Virus record (IMG/VR): IMGVR_UViG_3300027800_000031
Location: 1-36,771 of that record
Origin: a virus
Length of the DNA: 36,771 nt
Direction: 5' to 3' (one strand)
Part shown: positions 3,723-24,701 of the stretch, one piece after another
Position numbering within the stretch: position 1 is the stretch's first letter
Layout of the letters: every line of letters begins with the position of its first letter
Translations under genes and position numbers: made by a program
The notes under the pieces: model-generated
Database searches by the model: none
Told to the model about the DNA's origin: nothing
Seen by the model: the letters and a program-made list of their open reading frames with translations, nothing else

Positions 3723-4776
3723 AAAAGAAATCTCCGGACTAAATGATCCCAACCGCGATATTGTAAAACTACTAATAAACGGGCGCGAGTATACGGGCTG
3801 GACTGCGGCGACGATCACCATGGCGATCGATAACTGTTCCGACGCGTTCAGTTTAACCGCTCCGTTCGATCCTGGCGATCCGGTCATAATGGCTGCATTT
3901 AAGCCTATGGAATATCAGGGAGTAAAACTCTTAATTGGAAATGACGTAGTTCTGACGGGAACCGTTGACAAGGTCGATCCAAAAGTCGACGCTGGAAGTA
4001 GAACTATAACTGTCCAGGGGCGCAGCTTAACTGGTCCGCTCGTCGACTGCTCGATTGACGGAAACCTCGAATTTAACGGTTTAACGCTCGCGGATATCGC
4101 TCGTACACTCTGCAAGCCGTTCGGGGTCCGCGTTCGATCCGACTATAATACAGGAAAGATCGCCGCTGCGAGTGCTAAATTTGGTCAAGGAGCCTACGAT
4201 TTTTTGTCGAAGGTCGGCGGGCCGCATAATATGTTGTTGAACTCGTCGTATACTGGGGAACTAGTTATTACCGACGGGAAGGCGCTCGCGGCGAAAGCTC
4301 CGATCGCGACGCTCGTCGAGGGGAAAAAACCGCTTTTGTCGGTCGCCGCTTCGTTCGATTCGACGGCGCGTTTTTCGGTATACAAGATCAGCGCACAGCA
4401 GGACGGATCGGCGAACGTATCGGGGAAAGTAACTGACGCGACGATCAAAAAAAACCGACCGCGACTGATCGAGCAGGACGACACGGGAACCGATCCGTCT
4501 CTTGCCGCAGCATGGGAACGGTCGAAGGCGTTCGCCGCGTCTATGTCGGTATCGGCGACCATTGCAGGATGGCGACGACCTGACGGCGCGCGCTGGGCCG
4601 AACGCCAGATCGTCACGCTCAAGGCTCCCGGGGCGATGATTGTACGAGAATCGAGGTGGTTAATCGCCGGAGTAACTCATAAATTGGACTCTGGCGGAGG
4701 ATGCACGACAGACCTTCGCCTGATATTACCGGAAACGTATGCGGGAACCGTCCCGAAGGTATTACCGTGGGAATGA
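3715..4776 (+). CDS. Baseplate hub protein, Mu gpP / late-control D-like
   Basis: This 353-residue protein lies in the slot of Mu gpP (about 379 residues). Features of the hub family include an N-terminal beta region with INGREYTGWTAATITMAIDN, a two-domain gp27-like layout, and the segment LADIARTLCKPFGVRVR, which is typical of late-control/hub proteins. The trimeric hub links the tube to the spike. The start ATG at 3715 lies 8 bases inside the upstream gene. The stop TGA (4774-4776) overlaps the next start in ATGA. Family assignment is secure from motif style and synteny, although the residue-level function is inferred. Confidence 0.83.
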   Translation: MPEKEISGLNDPNRDIVKLLINGREYTGWTAATITMAIDNCSDAFSLTAPFDPGDPVIMAAFKPMEYQGVKLLIGNDVVLTGTVDKVDPKVDAGSRTITVQGRSLTGPLVDCSIDGNLEFNGLTLADIARTLCKPFGVRVRSDYNTGKIAAASAKFGQGAYDFLSKVGGPHNMLLNSSYTGELVITDGKALAAKAPIATLVEGKKPLLSVAASFDSTARFSVYKISAQQDGSANVSGKVTDATIKKNRPRLIEQDDTGTDPSLAAAWERSKAFAASMSVSATIAGWRRPDGARWAERQIVTLKAPGAMIVRESRWLIAGVTHKLDSGGGCTTDLRLILPETYAGTVPKVLPWE

Positions 4777-11459: not shown

Positions 11460-14126
11460 ATGAAATCAATATTTGACGAGGCGCGGTCCGCCGTCTCCGC
11501 GTCGCTTATACAGCAAATGCTCGAAACAAATGGCGCATATTGGGACGCTGGCGAATACTGGACGCGGAATCCGCTACGCGCTGACGGAACCGTCGGATCG
11601 TTCTCGATCAGTGAAACTGGGGTTTGGCACGACTTCGCCGACGATACCGGAGGAGACCTGATCGACCTGATCGTCGATATGCGAAAATGCTCAAAAAAAG
11701 AAGCCGCCGAGGAAATAGTCCGCATGGGTGGACATTACGTCGCAGAAGACACTCGACAAAGTCGCGAGACGTCGAAAAAGGAAAAACAGCGCGACAAGTT
11801 TCCGCCGCAAATTCCCGCTCCGGAGGCCGCGCTCAAGAGTCTAAACCAGGCAATGCGGGCAGACTGGGCGCGCGATCGATACGGCGAACCGCTCAAGGGG
11901 TGGACGTATCGCGACGCCGACGCTCGCGTCGTATTTTGCGTCGTCCGGTATGAAAAGAAAAAACCTGACGGAACTATCGCGAAGGACGTCGTTCCGTTCT
12001 ATTATGGTATTGACGAACGCTGGCACAACGGGAGCCCGCTCGACACTGGCCGACCGCTATTCAAGCTCGACCAGGTCTCCCGCGCTGATCGTTCGGTTCC
12101 GGTTCTCGTCGTCGAGGGTGAAAAATGCGCGTCCGTCGAGGTTCCCGGATATCTCGTCGTCACCTGGTCGCAGGGGACAGCGTCGGTTCTAAAAACCGAC
12201 TGGTCTCCGCTCGAGGGTCGCGAAATTATAATTTGGCCCGACGCCGATCATCAATACGACAAGGCCGGTAAACTTATTCCATGGCATGAACAGCCAGGCA
12301 TGAAGGCCGCGCTTACGATCGCAAAACGATTACCAGGGGCGCGAATTCTCGACGTTCAGAGTAAAGCCGCGCAAAAAAACGGCTGGGATATTGCCGACGC
12401 CGTTTCCGACGGAGTCGATCCCGTTGCATTTATTGCCGACACGCTGCCGCAGGTTGCCGGGGAAACAGGACGATCGGACGACGCGCTCCCGTTCGTAGTT
12501 CTCGGGCATGATACCGCAAGCCATTATTTTATGAGACGCGATTCCCGCGTCATTTTCGCAGTAGGTCGCGGATCGTTCAACGCGATTAAGGCGCTCGAGA
12601 TCGCTCCGCTTTCATACTGGGCGATCGACTTCTCCTCGAAAACTGACGGAATCCGCGCTGTCGATATTTATGATTTTTTGATTAACCTATCGGCGGACGC
12701 TGGATCGTTCGATCATACAAAAGTAAGGGGCGCCGGAGTGTGGCGTGATAAAGACGGAATAGTTCTTAATGACGGGCAGCGCTTAATTATGCCTGACGGC
12801 ACGGTTCGCGCATATGACGAACACCGGTCGGAATTTGTGTATATAAAATCATCGGTAAAGTTTGGGGCAATGGCAGGACCGGAGGCGACAGACGAGGACG
12901 GAGCACAGCTCGAGGAGCTATTCAAGGCGCAATCTTGGACCGATCCCGCGATGGCTACGCTGGCTATGGGCTGGGCGCTGATAGCTCCGTTCGGTGGTAT
13001 GCTAAAATGGAGGCCGCATATTTGGCTAACTGGACGAAAGGGGTCTGGTAAATCGTATATGCTCGAAAACCTGATCGCGCCGCTCTGCGGGCCGTTTGCT
13101 CATCGCGGATCAGGAAAAGACACGGAGGCCGGAATTCGCCGTTCGTTGAACATGGACGCGCGGCCGGTAATCCTTGACGAAATGGAGCCGAAATCCGCGA
13201 AGGCGCGCGAAAAAATCGGGAGCCTGCTCGAGCTCGCAAGAAACGCCTCGAGCGACGGTTCCGGCGTTATAACGATCGGAGGCGGAGTCGATGGCGGAGC
13301 CGTTACGTTCGTTATTCGATCGTGTTTCGCGTTCGCGTCCGTACAAGTTCCAGACGAGGACGCCGCCGTCGCGTCACGTATTATACGAATGGAACTACGC
13401 GCAGAGACCGACCAGGCCGCTAAATTCCGACGCTGCGCGGAGCTTTACGCCGAATGTATGCAGGACCCTAGTCGGTACACTCGCCGAATGTATCGGGCCT
13501 TGCCGCGGATACTTTCCGACGTCGAGTTTATACGATCGGCATATCTCGGTATATTTGGAGAACAGCGCAGAGTCGACCAGGTTGCGCCGCTATTCGCCGC
13601 AGCATGGGCCGCGCAGTCGTCGTCAACGATACGCGACTCGGACGCCGGACGCGAATGGCTCTCGGGATGGCTCGATCGCCTGGTCGCGTCCTCCGGAGAA
13701 TCCGTCGAGGACGAGGACGCGGTCGTCCGTCATTTAATCGCCGCGCAAGTAAGAAACGACGACGGGAAAACGCGAACCGTAGCGGAGTGGATGAACGGGG
13801 TAATCTTGAACGGCGAGGAGGGCGCCGAGGCGAACCTGCTCTCGCGCAATGGTATCCGGCTTATGGACTACGAAGGAAAGCGCGTCGTCGCGATCGCGGC
13901 CGATAATCAACACGTTCGGAAAATTCTAACGGGGACAGCTTACGAATCGGGATACGGCGCACAGCTCCGGCGAAATAAACTATGCGTCAAGGATTCGCAT
14001 ACCGTCCGTTTCGCCTGCGGTTGCCTGCGGGCCTGTCTGATCGATTGGACAGGGTTCAAAAAACAATATATCGGCGAGACCGTCATCGCACAGCCTGCGC
14101 TCGCGGACGACACGATTCCGTTCTAA
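11460..14126 (+). CDS. Primase-helicase fusion (TOPRIM plus DUF927 ATPase)
   Basis: This 888-residue protein is the main replication enzyme. The N-terminal region (30-95) resembles primase-associated domains (WTRNPLRADGTVGSFSI, WHDFADDTGGDLIDLI). A TOPRIM-like domain follows, with VVEGEK at 218-222 and IIIWPDAD at 256-263, giving the Glu and Asp pair that bind metal. The C-terminal half is a DUF927-type hexameric helicase: Walker A GRKGSGKS at about 523-530, Walker B RPVILDEME near 566, and WLTGRKG and GDGSGVITIGGG segments typical of the family. AAAAAAGGAAAG precedes the ATG. Primase-helicase fusions of this kind start lagging-strand synthesis and unwind the fork. Confidence 0.85.
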   Translation: MKSIFDEARSAVSASLIQQMLETNGAYWDAGEYWTRNPLRADGTVGSFSISETGVWHDFADDTGGDLIDLIVDMRKCSKKEAAEEIVRMGGHYVAEDTRQSRETSKKEKQRDKFPPQIPAPEAALKSLNQAMRADWARDRYGEPLKGWTYRDADARVVFCVVRYEKKKPDGTIAKDVVPFYYGIDERWHNGSPLDTGRPLFKLDQVSRADRSVPVLVVEGEKCASVEVPGYLVVTWSQGTASVLKTDWSPLEGREIIIWPDADHQYDKAGKLIPWHEQPGMKAALTIAKRLPGARILDVQSKAAQKNGWDIADAVSDGVDPVAFIADTLPQVAGETGRSDDALPFVVLGHDTASHYFMRRDSRVIFAVGRGSFNAIKALEIAPLSYWAIDFSSKTDGIRAVDIYDFLINLSADAGSFDHTKVRGAGVWRDKDGIVLNDGQRLIMPDGTVRAYDEHRSEFVYIKSSVKFGAMAGPEATDEDGAQLEELFKAQSWTDPAMATLAMGWALIAPFGGMLKWRPHIWLTGRKGSGKSYMLENLIAPLCGPFAHRGSGKDTEAGIRRSLNMDARPVILDEMEPKSAKAREKIGSLLELARNASSDGSGVITIGGGVDGGAVTFVIRSCFAFASVQVPDEDAAVASRIIRMELRAETDQAAKFRRCAELYAECMQDPSRYTRRMYRALPRILSDVEFIRSAYLGIFGEQRRVDQVAPLFAAAWAAQSSSTIRDSDAGREWLSGWLDRLVASSGESVEDEDAVVRHLIAAQVRNDDGKTRTVAEWMNGVILNGEEGAEANLLSRNGIRLMDYEGKRVVAIAADNQHVRKILTGTAYESGYGAQLRRNKLCVKDSHTVRFACGCLRACLIDWTGFKKQYIGETVIAQPALADDTIPF

Positions 14127-16496: not shown

Positions 16497-16769
16497 ATGG
16501 AAAAATGCGTAACGATTGAATTTAAGGGCGTCGAGCTTGAAATCTCGGGGGATTATACGCCGTATACGCCGGCGAAAATTACCGCCGATCCGTATGATTC
16601 AGCGCCGGCTGATGGAGGGACGTTCGAAAATATCGCGGTCTTTGTCGGGGAAGTCGACATAACAGACCTACTTGGACAGGACGTCGTCGAGGAAATCGAA
16701 AACGAGGCCGCGGTCAATGCTGCGGAAAATGACGAACCAGATTATCCGGAGGACTATAACGATGAATAA
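16497..16769 (+). CDS. Small acidic protein of unknown function
   Basis: This 90-residue protein is strongly acidic at the C-terminus (VVEEIENEAAVNAAENDEPDYPEDYNDE). The N-terminal part has an EISGDYTPYTPAKITADPYDSAPADGGTFEN style that I have seen in small phage proteins beside recombination genes. AGGAGG lies upstream, and its stop overlaps the start of the next gene by 8 bases. No known catalytic motif is visible. Confidence 0.65.
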   Translation: MEKCVTIEFKGVELEISGDYTPYTPAKITADPYDSAPADGGTFENIAVFVGEVDITDLLGQDVVEEIENEAAVNAAENDEPDYPEDYNDE

Positions 16770-17886
16770 ATATACAAGGATACGCGATTTTGACGGCGCG
16801 CTCGCGAGCGGGGTCGGGTCGTCCGACATTCCGATACTCGCAGGACTCCATCGTCATTATGGATCGACGACGCTCAAGCTATGGGAGCAAAAAACCGGAC
16901 GCGGCGAAAAATGGAACGGAAACGAGCGGACACGCGTCGGTCACGACCTCGAGGCCTATGTCGTTTTTCGGTTTGTCGAGGAGAAATTCGGCGAAGATAT
17001 TGCCGCCGACGTATACAAGGCGAAGCTACGCGACAGATCATCGGGGCCGTTTAAGGCGATGACGGAGGCCAGAAGCCCGGAAAAACCGTTCTGCATTGCT
17101 CACGCCGACGTTCTGGTCGATGGACAGATTTTAGTCGACCGCGGCGATGACGGACCGGTCGACCTGCCCGACGCGCCGTTTATAATCGAGGCGAAAACGG
17201 TCGGCGCATATGCTGGCAAGCGTCGCGAAGGACGGATTTTTACCGGATACGACCAGGACGATCGGACCGCTCAAGGAATCCCGGACGCCGTTTTTCTCCA
17301 GGTCCAGTGGCAATTATTATGCTATGGAGTCGAATTCGCATACGTCGCGGCGCTAATCGATAATCAATACAGCTCTTGGGGTCCGATCGAGGCCGATACG
17401 CGCGTACAAGCGAAATGCTTAGCGCTCGCGGAACGATTTTGGAGACTCGTTTCGACAGATACCGCACCGACGCCGGAAACATGGGACGACGTTCAGAGAC
17501 TTTTCCCGGAGCAAACAGACACTACCGTTATGATAGCCGGAGATCAGGAGGCCGACGTCCGCGAAATGATCGCGCGCGACAAGTCCCTCGCCGATCGAGC
17601 GAAGGCGATCGACGAGGAACGCGACGACATAAAAAACGCGATTGGCGTCCTCTTGGGCGAGAGCTCCGTCCTCTCCTCCGGGTCGGGCGATATACTGGCG
17701 AAATCGAGCGAAACGACGCGCGAGTCGGTCGTCATAATGGCTCGAGAAAAAGATATAAAAAAGGCGCAGGCGAGAAAATCTCCTCCGCCGCTGACCGAAG
17801 AAGAAGGGCAGATTCTCGAGCTTGCCGCAGCCGTCCGCGAACTCGGACTCGTTACGAAATCATCATTCCGACAGGTAAGGTTCTAA
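16762..17886 (+). CDS. YqaJ-type recombinase exonuclease
   Basis: This 374-residue protein belongs to the YqaJ/lambda exonuclease family of PD-(D/E)XK nucleases. Visible motifs are GVGSSDIPILAG (17-28), GHDLEAYV with Glu64, AHADVLVDG (metal-binding Asp), FIIEAKTV (E-x-K) and VFLQVQWQLLCYGVEFAYVAALI. It resects double-stranded ends 5' to 3' to give single strands for the RecT-type annealing protein encoded at 18528. GGAGGAC lies 8 bases before ATG 16762. The frame is open upstream to 16672, but only inside the previous gene. Confidence 0.88.
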   Translation: MNKYTRIRDFDGALASGVGSSDIPILAGLHRHYGSTTLKLWEQKTGRGEKWNGNERTRVGHDLEAYVVFRFVEEKFGEDIAADVYKAKLRDRSSGPFKAMTEARSPEKPFCIAHADVLVDGQILVDRGDDGPVDLPDAPFIIEAKTVGAYAGKRREGRIFTGYDQDDRTAQGIPDAVFLQVQWQLLCYGVEFAYVAALIDNQYSSWGPIEADTRVQAKCLALAERFWRLVSTDTAPTPETWDDVQRLFPEQTDTTVMIAGDQEADVREMIARDKSLADRAKAIDEERDDIKNAIGVLLGESSVLSSGSGDILAKSSETTRESVVIMAREKDIKKAQARKSPPPLTEEEGQILELAAAVRELGLVTKSSFRQVRF

Positions 17887-18156: not shown

Positions 18157-18537
18157 CAAACAGCCGGGAAACCGGACGAATTAACTTCCGAATTCGTCCG
18201 CGCCGCCGTTGGCGTCAACGCGGACACCTGGGGGCGCAAGGCTAAGCAGGCGACGGAGCTATGGCCGGAAACAGCTGTGCGGCTCCTTGGCGGGTTCGAC
18301 TCCCGCCGCTCCCGATCGTTCCGCGTATGCGGGACATAACTCCCGGCGGGGATAAACGCGAAAGTCTTATAGGTATTGATTGACGGTTTACCCTTCGCCG
18401 CCGTCGGCGATACGAAGGGAGTCGCGTCGCCGGTCCGTTACACAGCGGACGACCGCGAACTCCGATATCTTACCGGAAACGGTCGGAGCGAAATCGCAAG
18501 GCGGCATTTTTATTTATGGGGGATTATATGGCAATAA
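18157..18537 (+). pseudogene. Decayed gene or ORF fragments upstream of recT
   Basis: One reading frame (18157-18537) looks coding throughout but has two internal stops, TAA 18337-18339 and TAG 18370-18372, and no usable start at its 5' end. The first part reads SEFVRAAVGVNADTWGRKAK and the last part VRYTADDRELRYLTGNGR. A 12-codon ORF starting at ATG 18149 precedes it in another frame. The last part could be translated from TTG 18376 (53 residues). Its stop overlaps the start of recT. A 10-bp perfect inverted repeat (18173-18182 with 18191-18200) lies at the 5' end. I do not recognise the protein. Confidence 0.4.
18173..18200. promoter_or_regulatory. Perfect 10-bp inverted repeat (hairpin or operator)
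   Basis: CGGACGAATT (18173-18182) and AATTCGTCCG (18191-18200) are separated by 8 bases. It lies 25 bases after the promoter-like box at 18122, so it could be a transcript hairpin or a protein-binding site. No T-run follows, so it is not a terminator. Confidence 0.5.
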
Positions 18538-19457
18538 ACCAGAAACCGGACGAGGAAAAACAGGTCGCGCGCATCGGGCGACGCGGGCTCGAGACGGCCG
18601 TCGAAAAAATGACGCCAGAAATTATGGCGATTGCAGCGCCGTCGGTACGCTCTGCGGGGTCGACATGGCTCAAACGGGCGATTGTATCGATCGCGAACGA
18701 CGACAAGCTCCGCGACGTTTTACAATCCGAGGCGGGTATTTTTTCCGTAATAAAAGGATTTGAGAAAGCCGCTACAATGGGACTACAGCTCGGAGGGCAA
18801 TTCCCGCAGGCGTATATGACGGGATTCGACGGGAAAGCCGAATTGATCGTTTCCGCAGAGGGATTCAAACACACCGCAATTCACGGGCCTGGCGCCGTTC
18901 TGTCTGATATGCTAATTCGCCGCGTTTACGAGGGTGAAAATTTTGCTGTCGACTTTGCTGGAAACACCGTCGCGCACTCTTACGACGGGAAAACAGAACG
19001 CGGGAAAGTTATCGGCGTTTATTGCATTATGACGCGAACCGACGGAGTCAAGATCATAGACTATATGACACGCTCCGAGGCGCTCCGGGTTCGCGACGGT
19101 CACTCGAAAGCATGGCGCGCTTTCCAGGCTAAAAAAGTCTCCTCCTGTCCGTGGAACACCGACGAGGACGCAATGATCGAGAAAACAGCCGCTAAAAAGT
19201 TTCTCCGAAAATTTGCCGCCGAAGCCGAGGGACTCGCGATGCTATTTGGTCAGGACGCCGACGATTTCGACGATCAGTCTACGACCACTCCCGAACCGGC
19301 TCCTCGAGACGTTTCGGACCGCATGGCCGATCACCTGGACCGCAGAACAGAACGCACGGCGGCCGCTCCTGTCGTTCCGCAGGCGGATACCGTCGAGGCT
19401 GAAGTCGTCGCCGATACTGAACCGGTGCAGGAATCGAAGCCGGTGGAGTTGTTTTAA
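18528..19457 (+). CDS. RecT-type single-strand annealing protein
   Basis: This 309-residue protein has the RecT family pattern: LRDVLQSEAGIFSVIKGFEKAATMGLQLG (the conserved 'a...gL.lg' helix), AYMTGFDGKAELIVSAEGFKHTAIHGP, and the C-terminal SCPWNTDEDAMIEKTAAKKFLRKF. RecT proteins anneal complementary single strands made by the exonuclease (16762). The C-terminal 60 residues are acidic and Pro/Glu-rich. GGGGGA serves ATG 18528. An ATG 12 bases upstream is in frame but lies in the ribosome site. The pair YqaJ and RecT is a standard phage recombination module. Confidence 0.9.
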   Translation: MAINQKPDEEKQVARIGRRGLETAVEKMTPEIMAIAAPSVRSAGSTWLKRAIVSIANDDKLRDVLQSEAGIFSVIKGFEKAATMGLQLGGQFPQAYMTGFDGKAELIVSAEGFKHTAIHGPGAVLSDMLIRRVYEGENFAVDFAGNTVAHSYDGKTERGKVIGVYCIMTRTDGVKIIDYMTRSEALRVRDGHSKAWRAFQAKKVSSCPWNTDEDAMIEKTAAKKFLRKFAAEAEGLAMLFGQDADDFDDQSTTTPEPAPRDVSDRMADHLDRRTERTAAAPVVPQADTVEAEVVADTEPVQESKPVELF

Positions 19458-21711: not shown

Positions 21712-21746
21712 ACTGAACATTGCATAATGGATTTATGCTGTTCAGT
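21712..21746 (+). other. Hairpin at the left edge of the cassette array
   Basis: ACTGAACA (21712-21719) and TGTTCAGT (21739-21746) form an 8-bp stem. After a two-base bulge, GCATAA (21722-21727) pairs with TTATGC (21733-21738), with loop TGGAT. It stands 10 bases before the recombination point and could be the end of the early operon's transcript or part of the site that received the cassettes. There is no T-run. Confidence 0.5.
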
Positions 21747-21756
21747 CTAATTTATG

Positions 21757-24083
21757 TTAGGCCGACGCCTTCGGCGCCAATAAGGAGAAAAAATGAATAT
21801 CGATGATAGAAGCCATTTAATAATTCCAATTGAAAGTATAAAAAAACAGGAATATGAGAAATCTGGTTTTGGTGAAGTTTTTAATAGACAAAATATTCCT
21901 GAACATAGTCAGAAGCTGAAAAGAAATTTTTCTGCTATTACTTCTCGATTACAGCAAAGTAAAGATTTTGAATATATTGACACCTTAACAGTTTCAATTG
22001 TTACTCCTAAAGAATGGGATGCAAAAAAAGAAAAGGGACATCTCAATGACCTTGGATTCACAATACTGGATTATAGTCGGAAATATCCAAATATCGTGAC
22101 CGTCTCCATTCCTAAAAACAAATGGCCTGAAGTAGAAAAGAAAATTAGTCTATATGCAGAAAAAGGTGGGGTCGGAAAAACAAACTTACAGGCAATCAAT
22201 GGCTTTATTCCTCGATTAGCAAGTGATTCACTTAATATTACTACAGATGAAAGTGATAAATTAATAGATGTGAATATTACTTTTTTTAGTATACTTACTA
22301 AAAAAGAAGTAATAAATATAAGTGAACACTTGATTACTGAACTTAAAAAAAATAATAGGTCTGTTAAGGTTATCCAATTATCAGATGATGATGTTATTGT
22401 TTCTTGTTCAGCATCGATTAATGAATTAAAAGGTATTGTAAAAGACTATATATCTGTAAAATCAATTGTGAATGATGATATTGTATTTATTGAGAAAGCA
22501 TCAATCCGGACTAATTCTCATAAAACTGTTTTGGTTTCGAGGCCATTAACAAATCAAATCATTGCTGTCATTGATGATGGTATTTCTCCGCGTGAGGATT
22601 TAGCACCTCTAGTTACAGAGCGATTGTCTCCACAGGTTGCAAATGCAGTTACTGTTCCAGCAATACATGGAACGTATGTTGCAAGTAGATGCGTATTCGG
22701 AGATCTAGACCTTGATTCATTAGGTTCTGAAGTCGAACCTTGCTGTTGGCTTGATGATATTCCCGTTTTCGGTATAGATAGTTCAGGTAATAAATTAAGT
22801 CCAAGAGAATCAGATTTAATAAATGCAATTGATGCTTTTGTGAGCAAAAACTATAAAACAGTTAAGATTTACAATTTATCATTAGGATTTGGCGCCCCAC
22901 TGATTTATCAAAAGTTTTCAGAGACCGCAAAGCGTTTGGACCTGTTAAGTAAAAAATATGACGTTTTATTTGTTATTGCATCTGGAAATAATAATTCTTT
23001 ATTAGGCCTCTTCCCTGAAGATCATTTCAAAAATCCATATGCAAGCATATCATCACCTTCTGAATCATTAACTTGTTTATCTGTTGGCTCAATTGCAAAA
23101 AAAGAATCAGCAATTTCAATGTCAAAGTATAATGAAATATCTCCTTTCTCAAAAATCGGACCTGGACTATTCGGTAGTATTAAACCAGATCTTGTTGCGC
23201 ATGGCGGGAATCTAGTAAATGGATATAAACCTGATGCTGATATCTCAACGTGTGGATTTTCTGTAGCTAATGGATTAATTGAAAATGATATTGGTACGAG
23301 CTTTTCGGCCCCAATCGTCTCAAATATTGCTGCTCAATTATTTGACTACTATCCAATGTATGGATCAAACATGATACGGGCATTGCTTATCCATGGTGCA
23401 GAGGAACGCATTTTTCCACAAAAACTGAATATTGAATCTCATCTAGGTTGTGGCTATGGTGAACCAGATTTGCAAAAATGTTTGCAAAGCGATAACTTTT
23501 CTTGTGTGTTTCTAACTGAAGGAGAGCTGGATACTAGTAATTATGATCTTGTGCCATTTTATATTCCTAAAATACTTGCAGATGGAAAACAGTCACTACG
23601 TATAAAAATAACAATAACGTTTAATCCAGAAGTAAATAAAAATAATGATGAAGAGTATTCATGTTCAAGAATATCAAGTAACTTACAACGGCTTAAAGAT
23701 AATTGTCTTACAAAAAAAAATCCTGAAGAAATAAATCTATCAGCACCATATAGCACAGTGATTAGGTATAGTTGCTCAATGAAACGCAATATTGAGCCCG
23801 GAGAATGGGCAGTAAAATTACGTTTATACTCACGTAATGTTGATCAAGCAATCTATAAACAGAAATATGCTTTGGTTATTGAGATACGCGATGAACTTAG
23901 TAAAATAGATTTGCGAGAACAAGTTATCAACGAAACAGGTGAAATGTATATCAAAAAGCTGAAAGAAAGAAAAATGGCCTAACAACTGCTTCAACCTGAC
24001 TCGGCTATGTCACGATTCTTGCTAGTCGTCGCTACGCTCCTCGGCAAGAATCGCGCCATTACGCCTCGCAGGTTAAGCAAATG
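21757..24083 (+). mobile_element. Integron gene cassette 1 (S8 protease)
   Basis: The cassette starts at the crossover point of GTTAGGC (G at 21756, TTAGGC 21757-21762) and runs to the G before the next GTTATAC (24083). Its own attC starts with GCCTAAC (23977-23983), the exact reverse complement of GTTAGGC at its start. This match between start and R'' box is what a cassette excised and integrated as a circle must show. It carries one gene in the array's direction. Base composition is much more AT-rich than the phage around it. Confidence 0.85.
21793..23982 (+). CDS. Subtilisin-like (S8) serine protease, IetS-like anti-phage type
   Basis: This 729-residue protein has an intact subtilase core. 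The catalytic Asp lies in AVIDDGI (about 261-262), His292 in HGTYVAS, the oxyanion Asn399 in ASGNNN and Ser503 in GTSFSAPIVS. An N-terminal region of about 250 residues and a C-terminal beta-rich region of about 170 residues flank the core, and there is no signal peptide, so it acts in the cytoplasm. The three-part layout matches IetS, the protease of the IetAS anti-phage system (protease plus AAA ATPase). No ATPase gene is nearby. AAGGAG at 21782-21787 is the ribosome site. The gene sits alone in an integron cassette. Confidence 0.75.
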   Translation: MNIDDRSHLIIPIESIKKQEYEKSGFGEVFNRQNIPEHSQKLKRNFSAITSRLQQSKDFEYIDTLTVSIVTPKEWDAKKEKGHLNDLGFTILDYSRKYPNIVTVSIPKNKWPEVEKKISLYAEKGGVGKTNLQAINGFIPRLASDSLNITTDESDKLIDVNITFFSILTKKEVINISEHLITELKKNNRSVKVIQLSDDDVIVSCSASINELKGIVKDYISVKSIVNDDIVFIEKASIRTNSHKTVLVSRPLTNQIIAVIDDGISPREDLAPLVTERLSPQVANAVTVPAIHGTYVASRCVFGDLDLDSLGSEVEPCCWLDDIPVFGIDSSGNKLSPRESDLINAIDAFVSKNYKTVKIYNLSLGFGAPLIYQKFSETAKRLDLLSKKYDVLFVIASGNNNSLLGLFPEDHFKNPYASISSPSESLTCLSVGSIAKKESAISMSKYNEISPFSKIGPGLFGSIKPDLVAHGGNLVNGYKPDADISTCGFSVANGLIENDIGTSFSAPIVSNIAAQLFDYYPMYGSNMIRALLIHGAEERIFPQKLNIESHLGCGYGEPDLQKCLQSDNFSCVFLTEGELDTSNYDLVPFYIPKILADGKQSLRIKITITFNPEVNKNNDEEYSCSRISSNLQRLKDNCLTKKNPEEINLSAPYSTVIRYSCSMKRNIEPGEWAVKLRLYSRNVDQAIYKQKYALVIEIRDELSKIDLREQVINETGEMYIKKLKERKMA

Positions 24084-24089
24084 TTATAC
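23977..24089 (+). mobile_element. attC recombination site 1
   Basis: R'' is GCCTAAC (23977-23983) and R' is GTTATAC (24083-24089). L'' GCTTCAACCTG pairs with L' CAGGTTAAGC except for one unpaired C, the extrahelical base that IntI uses to choose the bottom strand. Crossover lies at G24083 / T24084. The stop codon of the S8 gene lies inside R''. The variable central part is about 70 bases and self-complementary (GATTCTTGC pairs with GCAAGAATC). Confidence 0.85.
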
Positions 24090-24099
24090 GGACGGCAAA

Positions 24100-24119
24100 A
24101 GGCATAACAAGTTATGCCT
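24100..24119. repeat. Short palindrome near cassette 2 start (possible collapsed attC)
   Basis: AGGCATAA-CAAG-TTATGCCT is a perfect 8-bp inverted repeat starting 16 bases after the cassette's crossover point. It reads as GCATAAC-AA-GTTATGC, that is, an R'' box joined to an R' box with the L boxes and centre deleted. Confidence 0.5.
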
Positions 24120-24140
24120 ACAAGCCGCAAAGGAGAAAAG

Positions 24141-24407
24141 ATGAATATATTCGAGTTTGCGGACATTATCGATAAAAGCATTGTTATTACTCGGTACGCA
24201 AATCAAGACGGACGATTCTCTGCATCGTTTGATTACTGCGAAACAAAACAAGGTGCATGCCTTTGCGGCGAATATGGAAACGGAAAAACTCCGCAAGAAG
24301 CATTAAACAACTATAAAAACAAGATAATCGGGAAGACTCTTGTTTTTAATGCAATGAGCGATGATTATCGGCAAGAATACGTCGCTCCGAAAATGGAAGA
24401 CGTATAA
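24141..24407 (+). CDS. Cassette-borne protein of unknown function (88 residues)
   Basis: The ATG at 24141 has AAGGAG upstream. The protein (MNIFEFADIIDKSIVITRY, DGRFSASFDYCETKQGACL, TPQEALNNYKNKIIGKTLV) resembles small uncharacterised proteins that occur widely in phages and bacteria, with a mixed alpha/beta sequence and an N-terminal 'mnifefa..i....vi.ry.nq' start. No enzyme motif is seen. Its stop codon lies inside R'' of attC2, as in many cassettes. Function unknown. Confidence 0.75.
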   Translation: MNIFEFADIIDKSIVITRYANQDGRFSASFDYCETKQGACLCGEYGNGKTPQEALNNYKNKIIGKTLVFNAMSDDYRQEYVAPKMEDV

Positions 24408-24461
24408 CAACGAGTTCGACCTGACAACTTAGTAAAGTTGCAGGTCAACTCAATGTTGGAT
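24402..24461 (+). mobile_element. attC recombination site 2
   Basis: A complete 60-base attC. R'' GTATAAC (24402-24408), L'' GAGTTCGACCTG, an inner stem CAACTT-AGTA-AAGTTG, L' CAGGTCAACTC, R' GTTGGAT (24455-24461). L'' and L' pair except for a single extra C, the extrahelical base. The crossover is G24455 / T24456. It is the shortest and cleanest attC in the window. Confidence 0.88.
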
Positions 24462-24472
24462 GGATTCTTTAG

Positions 24473-24492
24473 CGGTATAACAAGTTATACCG
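24473..24492. repeat. Short palindrome near cassette 3 start (possible collapsed attC)
   Basis: CGGTATAA-CAAG-TTATACCG is a perfect 8-bp inverted repeat starting 17 bases after the crossover point. The loop CAAG and position match the palindrome of cassette 2, although the stem differs. It reads GTATAAC-AA-GTTATAC. Confidence 0.5.
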
Positions 24493-24518
24493 ACACGAAC
24501 TAAACCGGAGGAAGTAAT

Positions 24519-24674
24519 ATGCGAAAGAAGCCTATTGATGCCAATGAATACGATTTCGATATGTTTGAAAATTGGTTAGATGAAAACGGCGTTGGAGAAC
24601 TGTTTGACGATTGGTCGCAATGGTGGGAATGTTGGAAAACCGCCTATCATTGGGGACAAGAAAATGGCATCTAA
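24519..24674 (+). CDS. Cassette-borne small acidic protein (51 residues)
   Basis: The ATG at 24519 has GGAGGAAG (24508-24514 region) upstream. The product, from MRKKPIDANEYDFDMFENWL to ENGI, is acidic and Trp-rich (WSQWWECWKTAYHW). It has no recognised family. Stop codon TAA lies within R'' (ATCTAAC). Small Trp-rich acidic proteins include inhibitors and DNA mimics, but nothing here shows that role. Confidence 0.65.
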   Translation: MRKKPIDANEYDFDMFENWLDENGVGELFDDWSQWWECWKTAYHWGQENGI

Positions 24675-24698
24675 CAACTGATTCCACCTGACTCAATG
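24669..24698 (+). mobile_element. Truncated attC site 3
   Basis: R'' ATCTAAC and the left arm AACTGATTCCACCTGA are present and align with attC1 and attC2. No L' partner (expected CAGGTG...) follows. The sequence ends in ACTCAATG, the same last bases as attC2 before its crossover, but CAG follows where TTRRRY is required, so it cannot recombine normally. Confidence 0.65.
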
Positions 24699-24701
24699 CA
24701 G

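Follow-up and report, generated by a model that had tools for sequence, protein, structure and literature searches.

The window, that is, the whole of IMG/VR virus record IMGVR_UViG_3300027800_000031 (36771 bases), certainly holds an integron cassette array, and it is likely, although not proven, that this array is an integrase-less phage integron served by the IntI of a host. The contig ends share a 133-base overlap with 2 mismatches, and the window is therefore very probably a complete, circularly assembled phage genome of ~36.6 kb, with the reservation that there are no junction-read data. The phage is a myovirus; it carries genes for a lambda-type large terminase, portal, Mu-gpT-like capsid, sheath, baseplate, primase and helicase, together with RecE- and RecT-like genes at 16672-17886 and 18516-19457. 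A tRNA scan of the window found none, and Rfam gave no match in it at gathering score.

Three single-gene units lie head to tail in one orientation (+ strand). The sequence-only reading had taken them for a cassette array in a phage genome, and this was confirmed by attC models and by the match between R' and R'' at each unit's own ends, which is exact in unit 1 (GTTAGGC/GCCTAAC) and unit 2 (GTTATAC/GTATAAC) and reaches 6/7, with one G-T pair, in unit 3 (GTTGGAT/ATCTAAC). Among the phage cassettes with both ends readable, the own R' was the exact reverse complement of the own R'' in 60 of 72, while R'' matched the R' of the next cassette in only 2 of 48 phage cases; the own-end match is therefore far beyond chance. 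Two further claims of that reading were borne out: base composition is unlike that of the flanking phage (GC of 33% in the cassette 1 gene, 40% in cassette 2 and 42% in cassette 3 vs. 54% in the phage), and no integrase gene is present, as the window record contains no match to the integron integrase model TIGR02249. The intI cut-off was likewise reached by none of the 38 phage records searched.

Detection by an attC model, the check proposed at the outset, succeeded for two sites and failed in part for the third. The covariance model R1, trained on other phages' contigs only and on no window sequence, recognized a complete attC1 with a long central hairpin (23977..24089, + strand; 60.5 bits, E=2.6e-12; bottom-strand fold z -4.6) and a complete, short attC2 (24402..24461, + strand; 69.6 bits, E=1.8e-14; bottom-strand fold z -7.6). 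The bottom strands of both fold as ssDNA hairpins. The third site (24669..24701, + strand) is a half attC consisting of R'', L'' and only the beginning of L', and it scored only E=0.38 because the rest of L' and R' are missing. The features that mark an integron cassette array were met: R''-L''-L'-R' boxes with a hairpin by the two full sites, with the third as a half, and one-gene units of single orientation with circle-derived ends by all. The array also qualifies as a CALIN (>=2 attC, no nearby intI); the window record does not qualify as a complete integron, which requires an intI gene. A simple ungapped L''/L' scanner for attC failed because the site has an extrahelical base.

Often only the 5' half of the last attC is present at the right end of an array, as seen in the window (24669-24701) and in L024, L026, L037 and L053, and in several cases the half site runs straight into the RBS of the next phage gene. 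The notion of a dedicated mechanism that always cuts the terminal attC at one set point was considered and dropped, since array ends mix full, half and absent attCs and the pattern with which half sites had first been detected itself ended at that very point. Directly right of the window array lies a terminator-like hairpin of the phage (24707..24722, + strand), found by a consensus scan that is not above chance (1 found vs. 2.1 expected in shuffles).

All three units are cassettes, as the sequence-only reading had it, but they are not alike. Cassette 1 (21757..24083, + strand) is of bacterial type, with the short leader GACGCCTTCGGCGC, one gene and attC1; it gave no significant match to the phage-leader model (15 bits), and its Treponema-type attC core is that of the Treponema MAG contig L134. 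Cassettes 2 (24084..24455, + strand) and 3 (24456..24701, + strand, end truncated) are of phage type and bear a structured leader, recognized by the leader model R2 (for cassette 3 at 24455-24502, E=8.3e-9).

The phage-type cassettes start with R'-NGA-P1-P2 hairpin-ACA-P1', directly upstream of the RBS. In cassette 2 this leader occupies 24083..24129 on the + strand, with P1 formed by CGGC/GCCG and P2 by AGGCATAAC/GTTATGCCT (R2 48.8 bits, E=2.7e-10; fold z -4.0). Most phage cassettes bear such a covarying 5' leader, which is essentially missing from bacterial arrays. All 12 pairs vary on both sides somewhere in the alignment, and 98 compensatory cells were counted, compared with 32 under shuffling and no more than 43 in slid controls; yet the structure was derived from the very sequences tested, which biases these counts in its favor. 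RNAalifold overlooked stem P1 on the first leader alignment, and P1 was revealed with a trimmed alignment and a given structure. Rfam gave no credible match to the leader in four phage loci. R2 detected about 100 leaders (E<1e-4) in viral loci. Among 76 bacterial loci with the attC pattern, only L072 and L094 were positive at this threshold; L072 is a viral contig itself, and L094, presumably a prophage, has sequence in common with the viral contig L030. Genome scans with R2 were positive in 1 of 393 spirochaete genomes and in 0 of 200 genomes of another phylum. The R2 scans recover known positives, and the large ones were run with stricter filters.

Leaders that are at least 90% identical front unrelated genes in 54 of 59 pairs, and their attCs mostly differ too. 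As far as comparison of sequences can tell, a cassette is modular, its leader, gene and attC each behaving as a separate unit, and a leader common to unrelated genes gives a starting point for learning how new cassettes arise. Examples of such leaders among phage cassettes are found in L026, L033, L036, L037 and L062.

At the left edge of the array the sequence-only reading, correct about the three units, had overlooked an attI-like element, TTTATGC-TGTTCA-GTCTAAT-TTAT|G (21732..21756, + strand), made up of palindromic boxes 1 and 2, then a spacer and the G at the G|TT crossover. This conserved element of ~24 nt adjoins the window's first cassette and likewise that of about 20 further phage arrays, and its ungapped consensus, nTTAkRC-nGAnnn-GnnTAA-nnnnT|GTT, stands left of the first cassette in most arrays. 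A PWM of 22 phage left boundaries scored the window element at 34.5 bits, or 32.9 bits with the window left out of training, and leave-one-out scores of the 22 boundaries ranged from 18 to 33 bits. Shuffled sequence gave a maximum of 20.1 bits in 775 kb, and attC boundaries gave a median of -14.7 and a maximum of 4.7 bits. A scan of IMG/VR by the motif only returned nine new contigs. Five of them, at 29.9 bits or above, were all cassette-bearing phages, and the motif directly abuts a cassette leader in L192, L195, L196 and L197; the remaining four scored 16.8-27.7 bits and had no cassette adjoining. Scores of true and chance sites overlap at about 22-28 bits, so the test depends on what follows the site.

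Several single loci deserve mention. In L200, the fifth of the high-scoring contigs, one element (at 886, within 863-892; 31.6 bits) has no recognizable leader behind it and, judged by its sequence, may be an empty site, while a second (4365-4389, 26.3 bits) runs directly into a leader of phage type at 4389. Phage L053 has two attI-like sites (13074-13104 and 11678-11708) with the same flank, two cassettes each and similar following genes, and it looks as if the module of site and cassettes was duplicated within this phage. An empty site could not be shown in G652, a close relative of the window phage. This relative is syntenic with the window phage and holds a remnant phage-type cassette (L206:2245-2530) at a different genome position, beside the helicase gene, a spot that is free of cassettes in the window.

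Related sequence occurs at chromosomal integrons. At the first-cassette boundary of six spirochaete integrons, namely those with a readable first cassette, the PWM gave 5.5, 6.4, 11.0, 14.9, 16.7 and 22.7 bits. The boundary site is located 151-176 nt past intI in five of them and about 415 nt past it in the spirochaete G426, and intI is oriented toward it, as in Treponema integrons, where intI points toward attI (PMC3607928). The PWM was trained on phage sites and chromosomal attI sites match it only partly; the two lowest scores barely exceed the attC-boundary maximum (5.5 and 6.4 vs. 4.7 bits), and an unrelated sequence close to the G426 intI reached 14.7 bits, not far below the 16.7 bits of that genome's attI. 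The palindrome GTTATACTGATCAGCATAA, which follows right after the host intI of G426 (L188:1423-1452), looks like the phage element's first two boxes. That the window element acts as attI is thus an inference from a motif it has in common with spirochaete attI, with no recombination data behind it.

The window array belongs to a wider family. The R''-L'' half pattern was found in 50 stretches of IMG/VR contigs, most of which are attCs of one family, often arrayed. Among these contigs are some whose terminases, portals, helicases and polymerases belong to different families, and the arrays are therefore not confined to a single phage lineage; the same design was present in about 30 other phage records and in the isolate phage TJE1. 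In bacterial genomes the pattern occurred, mostly as long attCs, in many contigs of Treponema and other spirochaetes, although some bacterial matches fall in other phyla or arose by chance. In G426, intI is full. A prophage region of this genome, marked by genes for terminase, portal and capsid, contains an attI-like site (24.9 bits) and two cassettes of phage type; at a separate place, a single phage-type cassette stands among bacterial ones within a large array of the chromosome. In the window, the bacterial-type cassette 1 with its Treponema attC core lies directly behind the attI-like site. These arrangements suggest that cassettes move between phage and host, the direction of movement being inferred.

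We propose that the phage has no intI but does have an attI-like docking site of its own, with cassettes behind it each of which was formerly an attC circle. Whenever the phage infects or resides in a host whose chromosome carries an integron (most likely a spirochaete), host IntI would act in trans, excising cassettes as circles at attC and inserting them at the phage site, so that newcomers land directly behind it. Cassette 1 would then be the newest, acquired from the integron of a host; the other two cassettes would stem from a pool of structured-leader, phage-type cassettes circulating among phages, and the broken last attC would lock the last cassette in place. Taken as a whole, we consider this explanation probable. 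It builds on attC sites, a circle signature, a conserved element, a leader and a single phage-type cassette within a host's integron, all of which can be read in the sequences, as can the absence of intI from the records searched. Placement of the cassettes by host IntI, already assumed in the sequence-only reading, gains support from the attI-like left edge, the Treponema-type attC1 core next to it and G426; the working of the element as attI, the action of IntI itself, in which direction and order cassettes were transferred, and which host the window phage has are inferred only. A spirochaete host is also put in question by TJE1, which has the same cassette ends and was grown on an actinobacterium.

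The array might instead be passive cargo without a docking site, a plain CALIN that entered once by off-target insertion of IntI at an attG-like secondary site or by illegitimate recombination. The lack of intI and the broken attC at the right array end agree with such an origin, and events of this kind are what Qi et al. (2023) propose for phage CALINs. Secondary sites should, however, vary between phages, whereas one and the same 24-nt element, free of gaps, stands before the first cassette of about 20 different phage arrays, a scan by the motif alone revealed further cassette-bearing phages, and in the window a bacterial-type cassette stands directly behind the element; we therefore regard this origin as unlikely. 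It is more doubtful still that the element is not a recombination site but a cassette promoter (Pc) or an operator. Box 2 is like a -10 hexamer (GTATAAT), and this ATAAT-like box could be a promoter, which cassettes require; a palindrome can also serve as an operator. Nevertheless, the spacing to the crossover base is fixed and gapless in 22 sites, related sequence lies at the first-cassette boundary of intI-bearing integrons, and promoter-like sites here were not above chance (8 found vs. 12.8 in shuffles, in a scan limited to the sigma-70 consensus). Moreover, attI may itself contain Pc.

Shuffling of the arrays by phage homologous recombination of the RecE/RecT type, with leaders and attCs as short homology and without IntI, would fit the RecE- and RecT-like genes of the window phage, the near-identical leaders before unrelated genes and the array ends that lack a full attC. 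It would not yield the match of R' to the cassette's own R'' rather than to its neighbor's, and we find it improbable as the sole process, slightly less so than a promoter or operator role for the element; both homologous recombination and IntI may be acting. An assembly chimera, in which spirochaete integron cassettes were joined to a phage contig, is very hard to sustain. The GC contents of cassettes and phage differ and there is no read mapping, but the contig closes on itself, cassettes 2 and 3 are of phage type, and the many other phage records and TJE1 have the same design.

We thus return to a phage integron that depends on host IntI. In its broadest form, in which phages keep a dedicated integrase-less integron, with an attI mimic that hijacks host IntI, a phage-only pool of cassettes under a structured leader, swapping of genes, often anti-restriction ones, and two-way exchange with host chromosomal integrons, we lean toward it only slightly. 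If true, phage-borne cassettes would be a recurring phage strategy and not captured debris, the docking site would borrow host integron machinery to gather and trade counter-defense genes, and there would be a concrete route by which phages and chromosomal integrons exchange cassettes.

The cargo was examined for known functions. The cassette 1 gene (21793..23982, + strand) encodes a 729-aa IetS-like S8 subtilase (Pfam Peptidase_S8 1e-31) with the catalytic motifs DDG, HGT and GTSFSAP. Its match to the PADLOC IetS model (3e-79) meets the requirement of the IetAS defense system for an IetS-type S8 subtilase; it differs from that system in lacking an IetA ATPase partner, none being adjacent, as cassette 1 is single-gene and the products of cassettes 2 and 3 have no family match. 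It may be a defense or exclusion gene, which is a guess. No IetS homologs were found in 393 spirochaete genomes at the strict cut-off of E<=1e-40, and the source genome of the gene was not found. Cassettes 2 and 3 each contain an ORF with an RBS, of 88 aa (24141..24407, + strand; no family match in Pfam or PHROGs) and 51 aa (24519..24674, + strand; no Pfam match), respectively. The 86 phage-type cassette proteins include several DNA methyltransferases (N6_N4, Dam, D12), Lar anti-restriction proteins and Mom; the majority are small and without known function.

Cassettes as phage cargo, correctly recognized in the sequence-only reading, are known in kind: according to Qi et al. (2023; PMC9892861), phages carry gene cassettes and IntI1 uses phage attCs. 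The CALINs described there for virulent phages, Tetrasphaera phage TJE1 and others, are likewise attC arrays without intI in phage genomes, and TJE1 has methyltransferase cargo like the phage cassettes studied here. Vibrio anguillarum phages, with a complete integron or a lone intIA, also carry integron parts, but as described in the same source they captured a piece of host chromosome including intI, while here an attI-like site and cassettes without intI recur in many phages. Chromosomal integrons of Treponema and other spirochaetes (PMC3607928) resemble the phage arrays in attC family, in the attC core of cassette 1 and in attI position and partial sequence. What sets them apart is the presence of intI, a short cassette leader with a single hairpin and attCs that are mostly long, in contrast to phage arrays with no intI, a two-stem leader and mostly short attCs. 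Four features seem to be new, namely the recurrent attI-like site, the phage-type leader, gene swapping under near-identical leaders and exchange with host integrons; they were not found in the available part of Qi et al. (2023), nor do the titles and abstracts of further papers mention them, in a search that did not extend to preprints or to most subscription journals. Cassette 2 links the window to a described phage, as its leader and attC2 are 97.6% identical to those of a TJE1 methylase cassette (L002:287-1075) with a different gene. The accessible text of Qi et al. (PMC9892861) reports no attI in virulent phages and calls the left palindrome of TJE1 a terminator. This palindrome, GTTAGACCGATCGGTCCAAC, fits the attI-like consensus determined here, with a spacer 1 nt shorter.
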